Virus record (IMG/VR): IMGVR_UViG_3300042475_004124
Location: 1 to 64,000 of that record
From: a virus
DNA: 64,000 nt
Reading direction: 5' to 3' (one strand)
Positions 6,823-63,926 of the stretch are shown here, piece by piece. The stretch's first letter is position 1. Each line of letters starts with the position of its first letter. A program made the translations under genes and the position numbers. Under the pieces are notes generated by a model. It did not search any database. It was given only the letters and a program-made list of their open reading frames with translations, and was not told where the DNA came from.

Positions 6823-7401
6823 ATGATCAAAATTGCAAACAATGTTCACACTATGCTGTTAAAGCAGGCCGCAAGACTAAAAGCAGAAGATGTTCCTTTC
6901 GGAGATCCTAACCACCCGGGGCACGTAGTAGCAGATTATCTTTATGGAGTTCCAGGCTTAATGCCTCTATACGGACACGCTCATGTTAGAAATAACATAT
7001 CGCAAGTTCTAGCTGAGGCTGCAGGCATTCCGTCAGAGGACGTTAGTTGGACTGTAAAGTATCCAATGCTGAGCATGCTTGCTGGTACGTTAGGAGGAGC
7101 TTCAATCGGAGGTCCAGCCGGGTACGGCATTGGAGCAGGACTTGGCGATAAACACCTTGGCGCCATCATCGGCGCTGCAGGCGGAGCATTAGGAGGGGGA
7201 TTATTAACTACCTTAGCTAGAAGAAAAGCCATTAAGGCAATTGCTGAGGAGTTTAATACGGCTAAGAAGCTAAAAAAGCTAGAGCCAGAAAATCTAGGCT
7301 ATTTTGGTAGTGTAGCAAAAGCTCTCCACAGCCCTGTCCATCCAGCTCTCCGAGATGGCATAATTGAGCAGACTGCTGGATTTACTAAAAAGCCTGACTA
7401 A
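6823..7401 (+). CDS. Glycine-zipper protein with MIKIANN leader
   Basis: 192 residues from ATG 6823. An in-frame ATG at 6790 lies inside the previous gene and is less likely, because starting at 6823 gives MIKIANNVHTMLLKQA, nearly the same leader as MIKVANNIQRMLKKA (61966, minus) and MISISHNITTMLLKQA (62929, minus). After the leader comes a soluble segment (~17-84), a glycine-zipper region (~85-125: LGGASIGGPAGYGIGAGLG, IIGAAGGALGGGLL) and a basic helical tail (LARRKAIKAIAEEFNTAKKL). No catalytic motif. A virion-packaged membrane-active protein is a reasonable inference. Confidence 0.8.
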   Translation: MIKIANNVHTMLLKQAARLKAEDVPFGDPNHPGHVVADYLYGVPGLMPLYGHAHVRNNISQVLAEAAGIPSEDVSWTVKYPMLSMLAGTLGGASIGGPAGYGIGAGLGDKHLGAIIGAAGGALGGGLLTTLARRKAIKAIAEEFNTAKKLKKLEPENLGYFGSVAKALHSPVHPALRDGIIEQTAGFTKKPD

Positions 7402-7411
7402 ATAAGACGTA

Positions 7412-8308
7412 ATGCGTAGAGCAAACGTATCTTTATCGAATCGCCAGCCGGCACCACGTAGACTTAAAAGTCCAGACTGGCGCTATAACTATGTAGTCAA
7501 ACTACTAGACGAATGGCGTGAACCCCGCAAGGACGACGATAAGTACGTAAGAGAACTCTACGCACTGCTCAAGGTAATTCGCCAAGAGCCGGTCGACGTT
7601 GTCGAGGCGTACAAAGACGCTCATCCAGACATTGCTGACGCTCTCATGCTCTACGAGAATGGGCCTTCGTATCGCCTGGACGTCGACACCCGTGTACTAG
7701 CCAGCTACTCCTTTGAGGAAGTCGCAAAGGTAGTTGGGCACGAAGCACCTGTCGTCGAATACTACGTCAAATGCTTCTTTGACGTTTTGGACAACCTGAC
7801 TAATTACGGTTACTTAAACCGTTGGGTCATAGAGCCAATCATGCGCTCTGCTCCGTTCAGCACAGAGGCTTTCTGGAAACGAGTAGCTATCTTTGGTGGT
7901 CGAGAGATGATCGAAGCCATTGAGAAGTGCTCTCAGCATCAGATGCAAAAGCTTTTTGAGACATTATTTGACAACTTGGTATTGTCCAAGGGTATCCAGG
8001 CTGCCAACGGCATTATGCCTAATGCTAGAAATGCCACCGAGCTTATTGGACTAGCCAAGGACAATATTAATGAGCGCAAGAAGATTGAGGCTATCTTCGG
8101 TGGAGTAAAGGAAGACGATACCTTTACATCTCAGATCGTCAGCGTAATGCTGAAATCTTTCACCTTTGGTCTTATGAATCACAATGCCTTGCCAGCAGAT
8201 CCTATTAGATCGGGGCAGTATTCTGATCAGGACCTGGCAGCCCTACATCCCAATAATCCTCCTCGTTTTGTTGAAAATCAAAATCAGGGTAAAATAGAGC
8301 AACAATGA
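7412..8308 (+). CDS. Unrecognised alpha-helical protein, 298 aa
   Basis: It starts strongly basic (MRRANVSLSNRQPAPRRLKS) and continues almost wholly helical. Two segments could be helix-turn-helix-like (VDVVEAYKDAHPDIADALMLY at ~55-80 and LASYSFEEVAKVVGHEAPVV at ~100-120), the second resembling a small DNA-binding or packaging-associated fold. The tail is disordered and Asn/Pro-rich. Its stop overlaps the next ATG (CAATGA). I could not match it to a family. A DNA-binding role is speculative; conserved head-gene neighbours suggest a structural or packaging accessory function. Confidence 0.7.
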   Translation: MRRANVSLSNRQPAPRRLKSPDWRYNYVVKLLDEWREPRKDDDKYVRELYALLKVIRQEPVDVVEAYKDAHPDIADALMLYENGPSYRLDVDTRVLASYSFEEVAKVVGHEAPVVEYYVKCFFDVLDNLTNYGYLNRWVIEPIMRSAPFSTEAFWKRVAIFGGREMIEAIEKCSQHQMQKLFETLFDNLVLSKGIQAANGIMPNARNATELIGLAKDNINERKKIEAIFGGVKEDDTFTSQIVSVMLKSFTFGLMNHNALPADPIRSGQYSDQDLAALHPNNPPRFVENQNQGKIEQQ

Positions 8309-62929: not shown

Positions 62930-63627
62930 TTGCTGAGTCCGTTGGCGAAGTTCTGTACGAATTTGTTCCAAGCTCCGTTGTCTTTGTTTACCAAAGGAGC
63001 GTTGTTAAGCTCTAGCATCATTTTTGCCAGCCGTCTTTCCACGTATGCCTTTACGTCTTCCTGAAAAGCCAGCTGATCCTGAATCATGATCTGCATAGCT
63101 TCCGAGGTATCCGCGTTAGATTCCACGTTTGCTGCGTAGTCACCAGGTCCCATATCGGCAACCTTGGCTAGTACTTGCGGAGGCCGGTATAAACCCTGCT
63201 CCTTGCACACTTCTCCAATGTACCTACGGACATCGGAGCCCAGGCGTTCTGGCGTGCTGCTGTCCAGCATGGTCAATTCGGTGATTGCCCAGGCGCATTC
63301 ATAGACATCGGCAATATCAAACACATCGTAGCTTAGCGGAGTACCGTTAAGCACATTTGCCGTGTTCATGAATGTCGATACGTCCGAGTGAACGAGGTCG
63401 GACGTAAGGGAAGTCCAAAGAGACCAAACTTTGTCTGTACTGATAGCTGGAATATCGGATACCCCGAAACCTTCCTCAATTTCTTGGCGGAAGGCTTCTG
63501 GGTCCATATCAAAGATTTCCTGGCCGTACGAGTCCAAGACCATAACGAGGAGCGTGGTCCCGACGGTATCACGACTGCGCCAGAGTTGCTCATAGGTTTG
63601 CTTAGATGTTACGGATTTTACAGGCAT
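62926..63627 (-). CDS. Unknown 233-aa protein of the minus-strand operon
   Basis: Alpha-rich and acidic with no leader of the KQA type (MPVKSVTSKQTYEQLWRSRD). Segments VWSLWTSLTSDLVHSDVSTF and VYECAWAITELTMLDSSTPE suggest a helical bundle. No motif recognised. Translationally coupled to the next gene (ATGA). A weak ribosome binding site only. Confidence 0.65.
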   Translation of the reverse strand: MPVKSVTSKQTYEQLWRSRDTVGTTLLVMVLDSYGQEIFDMDPEAFRQEIEEGFGVSDIPAISTDKVWSLWTSLTSDLVHSDVSTFMNTANVLNGTPLSYDVFDIADVYECAWAITELTMLDSSTPERLGSDVRRYIGEVCKEQGLYRPPQVLAKVADMGPGDYAANVESNADTSEAMQIMIQDQLAFQEDVKAYVERRLAKMMLELNNAPLVNKDNGAWNKFVQNFANGLSK

Positions 63628-63632
63628 TACTT

Positions 63633-63926
63633 TTATTTAACTTTACTTAGAAAGTCATTGAGCAAGAGGCTGCCGAGTTGCTGGCGAGCTGGCTCAGGAA
63701 ATTTGCCTTTCATAAGCGCTGTATCTATAGCGTTAATTGTTGCGTTCAACTTTTGCGAGAAGTCATCATCGCTCATTGTTTCGTAGAAATCGTCAGGAGA
63801 GTATGGAAACTTTAGATTGATTTTCTTTCTATTTTTTAGACCATATAATTGCCAAGGACCTTCTCCTTGGTTTGCAGAAGCTTTAATTAAAGCTAGCGCA
63901 GTTAAGTTGCTTGCTACTTTAATCAT
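63633..63926 (-). CDS. Small leader-bearing protein, 97 aa
   Basis: Starts MIKVASNLTALALIKASANQ, the leader type of this operon, followed by a polar, acidic C-terminal region (YSPDDFYETMSDDDFSQKLN, FPEPARQQLGSLLLNDFLSK). No glycine zipper is present, so the leader is not restricted to the zipper proteins. Start overlaps the upstream stop (TAATG). Probably virion-packaged small protein by the leader argument. Confidence 0.7.
   Translation of the reverse strand: MIKVASNLTALALIKASANQGEGPWQLYGLKNRKKINLKFPYSPDDFYETMSDDDFSQKLNATINAIDTALMKGKFPEPARQQLGSLLLNDFLSKVK

Follow-up and report, generated by a model that had tools for sequence, protein, structure and literature searches.

The capsid targeting sequences of phage T4, carried by IPI, IPII, IPIII and Alt, consist of a targeting part and a processing part and are removed by gp21; for IPIII, 10 residues suffice as the capsid targeting sequence (PMC9026906). 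The 30 N-terminal residues of the phage P1 protein DarB send a reporter into the head (PMC9024508). In phages phiKZ and SPN3US, the propeptides of head cargo proteins are cut by the phage head protease at multiple sites each (PMC10052503, PMC9026906), and the SPN3US enzyme cuts after A-x-E (PMC10052503). Polyvalent phage proteins, with their SNF2 helicases, ADP-ribosyltransferases and peptidases, are thought to be packaged and injected (Iyer et al. 2017; PMC5512222). Here we describe a leader of about 15 residues that heads four proteins in a 64,000-nucleotide stretch of viral DNA (hereafter the window), namely bases 1-64000 of the 110,101-base IMG/VR record IMGVR_UViG_3300042475_004124 (G000). 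We consider it very probable, from the sequences compared below, that this leader is a modular, two-part capsid-targeting propeptide which is cut at a K-x-A site by the phage's own prohead protease, an enzyme of predicted gp21 fold, and that its cargo is thereby freed in the head.

Four near-identical N-terminal leaders had been claimed in a first-pass annotation of the window, and all four are present on complete open reading frames (ORFs):

6823..6870, plus strand: leader 1, MIKIANNVHTMLLKQA; predicted cut after A16, the ending L-L-K-Q-A fitting the K-x-A motif
61922..61966, minus strand: leader 2, MIKVANNIQRMLKKA; predicted cut after A15
62882..62929, minus strand: leader 3, MISISHNITTMLLKQA; predicted cut after A16
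63876..63926, minus strand: leader 4, MIKVASNLTALALIKAS (shorter form MIKVASNLTALALIKA); predicted cut after S17, in a K-A-S ending

The likeness of the four is far beyond chance. Leave-one-out scoring of the four against one another, chosen to avoid circularity, gave 43.7 (leader at 6823), 36.7 (61966), 38.7 (62929) and 30.3 (63926). The maximum elsewhere was 18.7-22.0 over 32,296 sequence windows taken from the record's other called proteins (19.3 in the comparison for the 6823 leader), and the best leader score among the 122 other called N-termini of the record was 7.0-10.7. The record-wide search for further leader N-termini that had been proposed was run with a four-seed profile over all 110,101 bases; it left the four standing and yielded no additional start scoring at least 18. 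Looser versions of the leader had also been reported for the genes at 651 and 3425. Their leader scores are -17 or -15, and 6.8, respectively, and the leader is absent from both, the only shared item being a K-Q-A tripeptide near the N-terminus. The start of the 6823 gene rests on leader homology, because no Shine-Dalgarno-like motif precedes its ATG (score 0) and there is a TTG in the same frame further upstream, at 6790. Comparison of the translations bore out the claim that the bodies behind the four leaders differ:

6823..7401, plus strand: leader-bearing glycine-zipper protein of 192 amino acids, inside the head gene block (match to Pfam Gly-zipper_YMGG below cut-off)
61370..61966, minus strand: leader-bearing glycine-zipper protein of 198 amino acids (ORF and leader)
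62018..62929, minus strand: leader-bearing protein of 303 amino acids with a Cys/Lys-rich domain and a glycine zipper (phrog_727, 9.2e-19, unknown function)
63633..63926, minus strand: small leader-bearing protein of 97 amino acids (ORF and leader)

The proteins of 62018-62929 (minus strand) and of L017:2472-3122 (minus strand) have a common glycine zipper and C-terminus and different small Cys/Lys-rich domains, as if these had been swapped.

A search with the capsid protein led to 12 related loci, and their nine underlying records were searched for the leader, eight of them being read in stretches. The leader profile matched six times in G005, seven times in G006, three times in G004, twice in G003 and once in G002, starts scoring at least 18 that do not read as the leader being omitted from these counts; there was no match in G007, G008 and G009, which are short fragments (28-39 kb). 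In IMG/VR, a pattern search at the DNA level for MIK[x]ANN[x]Q returned 21 stretches on 20 contigs. From both sources combined, a rule applied to residues 1-8 only gave a leader set of 25 proteins, or 24 without near-copies (like the 66 reported below for a sister clade, this count depends on crude ungapped identity limits and is an upper bound for distinct cargo families). Since residues 9 onward were outside the selection rule, they test the leader ending. K-x-[AS] is present within residues 9-30 of 23/24 leaders, its frequency in other N-termini being 19.7% (n = 585; binomial P ~1e-15), and [LIVMF]-x-K-x-[AS] in 17/24 leaders vs 7.0% of other N-termini. The P1 residue falls at position 15-17 in 18/24 leaders. 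The single leader without K-x-[AS] is that of a 64-amino-acid ORF (L077:10350) that is included in the count of 24 and has probably arisen by chance. The bodies found across the relatives include glycine zippers, Pro-rich proteins, one Cys/Lys-rich protein and unknown proteins; a short N-terminus is common to otherwise unrelated proteins, as in capsid targeting sequences of the T4 type. By eye, an HExxH-like motif (HESTH) was spotted in the 364-amino-acid leader protein of L052:4107-5198 (plus strand); this protein, which has no Pfam support, is a possible metallopeptidase.

The K-x-A of the leader ending is also the prevailing motif of the head genes. Observed and composition-expected counts were compared for all 400 a-x-b residue pairs in head blocks of 10 genes each from three distant phages, namely the window record, Salmonella phage Arash and Vibrio phage D69. 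K-x-A ranked 1/400 in the head genes of all three (64 vs 25.8 expected in G000, 48 vs 22.1 in Arash and 51 vs 22.5 in D69), its ranks in their other proteins being 67, 379 and 263, respectively. In the same head genes the spacings K-A, K-xx-A and K-xxx-A were not strong, and the T4-type motif [IL]-x-E, with Glu at P1, did not emerge (I-x-E and L-x-E both outside the top 5). As a positive control, seven T4 head genes returned T4's known motif, with I-x-E at rank 1 and L-x-E at rank 3; K-x-A was at rank 12. The protease alignment gave 80 loci of 224 relatives, many of them near-copies, and around the protease K-x-A ranked 1 in 48/80 loci and in the top five in 72/80. In 54 of the 80 loci the protease was recognised, and these fall into 32 groups at 60% identity. 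Among these non-redundant groups K-x-A took first place 14 times and a top-five place 26 times, its median rank being 2, vs median ranks of 185-285 for the control pairs K-A, KxxA, AxK, RxA and ExA. Its flanks favour L/M/F at P5, E/V at P4 and S/E/A at P1'. K-x-A ranked 1 in phage G and 33 in PA-SR01, where the presence of the protease is not established. The head genes of the window and their sites are as follows:

4692..6818, plus strand: homologue of the Arash structural protein gp218, which is in the Arash proteome; 12 K-x-A vs 4.1 expected
8305..9600, plus strand: head-block gene, weak homologue of Arash gp220; 13 K-x-A vs 3.1 expected
9600..10778, plus strand: head-block gene; KRA at residues 16-18
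10788..12143, plus strand: prohead protease of predicted gp21/assemblin fold (VIA-align with 5JBL; BFVD; phrog_18299, 5.9e-5)
10890..10898, plus strand: putative N-terminal site of the protease itself, K35-R36-A37, in an aligned K-x-A column
12171..13721, plus strand: scaffold/core-like gene between protease and capsid protein, its role assigned from position; 15 K-x-A vs 7.7 expected, the first KRA at residues 20-22
14790..15767, plus strand: major capsid protein, homologous to Arash gp226, which is annotated as such (phrog_2522, 1e-5)
14820..14828, plus strand: predicted capsid protein site K11-R12-A13, its K-x-A kept in the capsid proteins of relatives

Two of these proteins have the motif at a fixed place. 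The capsid protein was recognised in 65 loci, or 26 after removal of redundancy, and 26/26 have K-x-A within residues 1-60, mostly at 23-33, vs 15% of 60-residue windows in the bodies. In the protease, the K35-x-A37 column is kept in 50/53 aligned members (44/47 outside the window's clade), most columns around it being far less conserved, and 35 of the 50 have S or A at P1'. In Arash, the predicted sites are K27-E-A29 of the major capsid protein gp226, which would make G30 its new N-terminus, and K30-Q-A32 of the protease gp222. By ending at K-x-A/S, the leader ends at the motif statistically inferred for the phage's own head protease, as capsid targeting sequences of the T4 type do. Regularly spaced [hydrophobic]-x-K-x-A sites were also seen, 10 in D69 170872-171723 and 8 in Arash 174466-175335, which makes these proteins look like precursors that are cut into pieces.

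The AlphaFold model of the protease (mean predicted local distance difference test score, pLDDT, 74.1) was aligned with VIA-align to Foldseek's top PDB chains. Its match with T4 gp21 (5JBL_B; Z 11.0, 145 residues aligned, root-mean-square deviation 3.0) indicates that the modelled protease has the T4 gp21 fold; the next matches are herpesvirus proteases (assemblins; Z 5.5-4). A BFVD search with the model gave 62 matches at E <= 0.001, many of them named prohead protease, and phrog_18299 (head maturation protease) is matched by 38/53 family members. At the sequence level, a search of PDB with a four-member profile gave no match, and hhalign of the protease profile with T4 gp21 was not significant (probability 0.2%), although the N-R-N motifs of the two align. 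H98 and S149 are invariant in the 53 members and are putative catalytic residues. Residues 152-175, in the catalytic domain, contain an invariant C159-x-x-C162...C173 that may form a zinc site.

Comparison of N-termini around the protease in distant family members revealed other tags. M(x)NKYLEKIA(S) stands on several unrelated proteins of a related clade, and MNKLAYYKGYMEKEA (two close forms and a looser third) heads three genes in L142/L143. A scan for NKYLEKIA gave 54 stretches, and a looser rule over L106-L240 gave 81 proteins, or 66 by the crude redundancy limit. In ten genomes its coding pattern occurs 50 times, vs 0 for a reversed control; 41/50 of the DNA words are distinct, with synonymous codons near random. 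The protease is present in 24/29 searched NKYLEKIA records and in 18/18 of those of at least 50 kb; a thirtieth contig, outside those 29, has it according to the relatives' list (L180). When ten NKYLEKIA cargo proteins were scanned against Pfam, four were SNF2 helicases (E 6e-17 to 4e-21) and two matched PTS_2-RNA below the Pfam cut-off (E 0.0011 and 0.0076). An ADP-ribosyltransferase among these cargoes stays only possible, since the AlphaFold model of the ADP-ribosyltransferase-like protein is poor (mean pLDDT 37.6) and the PTS_2-RNA match is below cut-off. Nine leader proteins of the window's group and ten of the sister clade have no domain, or one kind each. When the entire genomes of Arash and D69 were scanned for recurring N-termini, no comparable leader emerged, but this is a weak test, which also missed most of the known G005/G004 leaders.

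The T4-like reading of the leader, as a capsid-targeting sequence or a propeptide removed by a protease, had been put forward in the first-pass annotation. It gains support from the K-x-A ending common to the capsid protein, the protease and the core genes, and further from the gp21 fold of the protease model and from the different leader of a sister clade, which ends alike and stands on many cargoes. The sequences themselves provide a common leader, its ending, a head-specific K-x-A, fixed sites, the protease fold and alternative tags, from which we infer K-x-A cutting, head targeting, cargo packaging and delivery to the host. Leader residues 1-12 (MIK-V-A-N-N-L-Q-R-M-L) would be the targeting element that docks unrelated cargo to the prohead core, with hydrophobic residues at positions 1, 4, 5, 8, 11 and 12, as in an amphipathic helix. 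The remainder, [LM]-x-K-x-A/S, would be the cleavage site of the phage's gp21-fold prohead protease. Cutting after A or S would strip off the tag, so that the cargo is loose in the mature head and can exit together with the DNA. The tag would behave as a portable cassette: bodies change, and selection at the amino acid level preserves the tag. Across the protease family, sister clades would have tags of their own and share one cutting site.

The system is of the same kind as the targeting sequences of T4 and P1, from which it is set apart by a new specificity and by the much wider sharing of its tag. As in T4, a short N-terminal propeptide is common to unrelated proteins and its removal by the head protease is predicted; unlike in T4, the leader sequence is another one, the site is K-x-A/S instead of I/L-x-E and a single genome can carry more tagged genes (6 in G005 and 7 in G006). 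Helicase-type cargo is shared with P1 DarB (PMC5512222), whereas the Dar N-termini are without consensus according to their authors (PMC9024508) and here one consensus heads many proteins. The motif in phiKZ and SPN3US is S/A-x-E, in contrast to K-x-A, and the propeptides described there are mostly of 111-254 residues, only two being as short as 20 and 24. Polyvalent proteins have their domains fused in one large protein, while separate small proteins with a common tag are found here. The herpesvirus assemblins have the same fold as the protease model (Z 4-5.5). They cut between A and S at their own sites, and we know of no case among them of Lys at P3 or of use of such a site in a cargo tag. 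The system had been put forward as a candidate for an undescribed one. Its general kind is already described, in the capsid-targeting sequences of T4 and P1, and it is the K-x-A specificity that appears to be unreported: among titles and abstracts, in a search that left most subscription journals outside its coverage, none was found that names K-x-A as a motif of head proteases or reports the NKYLEKIA leader.

A link to virions comes from Arash. A tagged SNF2 helicase is 39% identical over 97% to Arash gp217, which is listed in the Arash virion proteome (mass spectrometry; 38 unique peptides, 1148 spectra; PMC10585845). This shows one cargo type to be reported in virions of the family; it does not show the leader to be what brings it there. 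The proteome study looks permissive (116 proteins; N-termini unreported). The Arash RNA polymerase subunits gp206 and gp216 are among its most abundant virion proteins (PMC10585845). The window gene at 1502-3385 (plus strand) is a homologue of gp216, annotated as an RNA polymerase subunit (E 4e-55), and by this homology the phage of the window may have an RNA polymerase in its virions.

Two further genes belong to the minus-strand leader cluster:

62926..63627, minus strand: leaderless gene of 233 amino acids (leader score -13.8)
63926..64000, minus strand: 3' end of a gene for 448 amino acids that runs to record position 65272; 16 K-x-A vs 4.7 expected

The 448-amino-acid protein (record 63926-65272, minus strand) heads the cluster and is possibly a core protein from which cutting yields many fragments. 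At the other end of the window, 6-422 (plus strand) encodes a protein with near-perfect PMDPAMAGGMPP repeats.

Several observations weigh against a cleaved targeting propeptide. The gene at 62926-63627 has no leader in spite of lying inside the leader cluster. A hydrophobic residue stands two before the K in just 17/24 leaders, and in L017:3122 and L018:1351 K-x-A is confined to the targeting part. K-x-A is weak in L129, L149, L152, L178 and L180 (rank 12-21) and ranks 5 in I3 and 19 in Stormageddon. Foldseek found nothing significant for the protease model in PDB (best E 0.29). Of 16 additional fragments with the MIKVANN leader (13-71 kb), none contains the protease; another four leader contigs contain it. 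Arash gp217 has no leader itself, and finding it in virions is therefore no test of one. Finally, gp223 and gp213 of Arash both have K-x-A sites and are covered in the Arash proteome to 100% and 93%, respectively (PMC10585845), values not to be expected if cutting and loss were complete.

The last point, together with the many K-x-A copies inside core proteins and the fact that no cleavage was observed, would suit a leader and K-x-A that serve only as a head-core docking motif, targeting proteins to the prohead and staying uncut. We regard this as improbable, though less so than the other alternatives, since one site stands at a fixed place just before the folded domain of both the protease and the capsid protein, P1' prefers small residues, and the identical test applied to T4 finds a known cleavage motif. 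It is more doubtful still that the leader is an export or membrane signal, that is, a signal peptide or membrane anchor. Its helix is amphipathic and several bodies are glycine zippers, but it also stands on bodies without glycine-zipper segments, the sister leader stands on SNF2 helicases, and K-x-A is concentrated in head genes and not in others.

If gene starts had recently been duplicated without function, or if a nucleotide element such as a promoter or ribosome site were conserved, this might account for some upstream DNA being alike in G006 and for identical residues sharing codons somewhat above random (43% differ vs 62% expected). Yet synonymous positions vary widely while the residues are kept, and the codons of the sister leader are near random over 50 copies, which makes this explanation hardly credible; DNA-level conservation as the cause of the leader was rejected on this synonymous-codon variation. 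Some large phages sort proteins to a compartment such as the phage nucleus, and the leader could be a tag of that sort, for another compartment of the infected cell, that overlaps head-type sites by chance. Such a coincidence is just as hard to credit for a tag which ends in the head-protease motif and of which one bearer, the gene at 6823, lies inside the head gene block.

If the leader is a cleaved capsid-targeting propeptide, gp21-type proteases would have a new predicted specificity, those in the papers cited cutting after Glu. Such cuts could have gone unseen because trypsin cuts after the K, the new N-terminus being visible only in semi-tryptic searches. The tags would also be short candidates for loading chosen proteins into heads. 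We think it fairly likely that the whole lineage, which takes in Bacillus phage G as well as marine, freshwater and Salmonella myophages, uses modular cargo loading with one specificity, [LM]-x-K-x-A|[SA], and exchangeable clade tags (MIKVANNLQRMLEKQA, NKYLEKIA and MNKLAYYKGYMEKEA). Any gene gaining a tag would then become head cargo, and the tags would therefore form a genome-readable list of delivered proteins. The question of which phage proteins travel in the head and enter the host would become a motif search, in which the tag marks cargo and K-x-A the cut. The list would hold SNF2 helicases, glycine-zipper proteins, possible ADP-ribosyltransferases and metallopeptidases, and dozens of unknown proteins, which would thereby be flagged as likely effectors of early infection.

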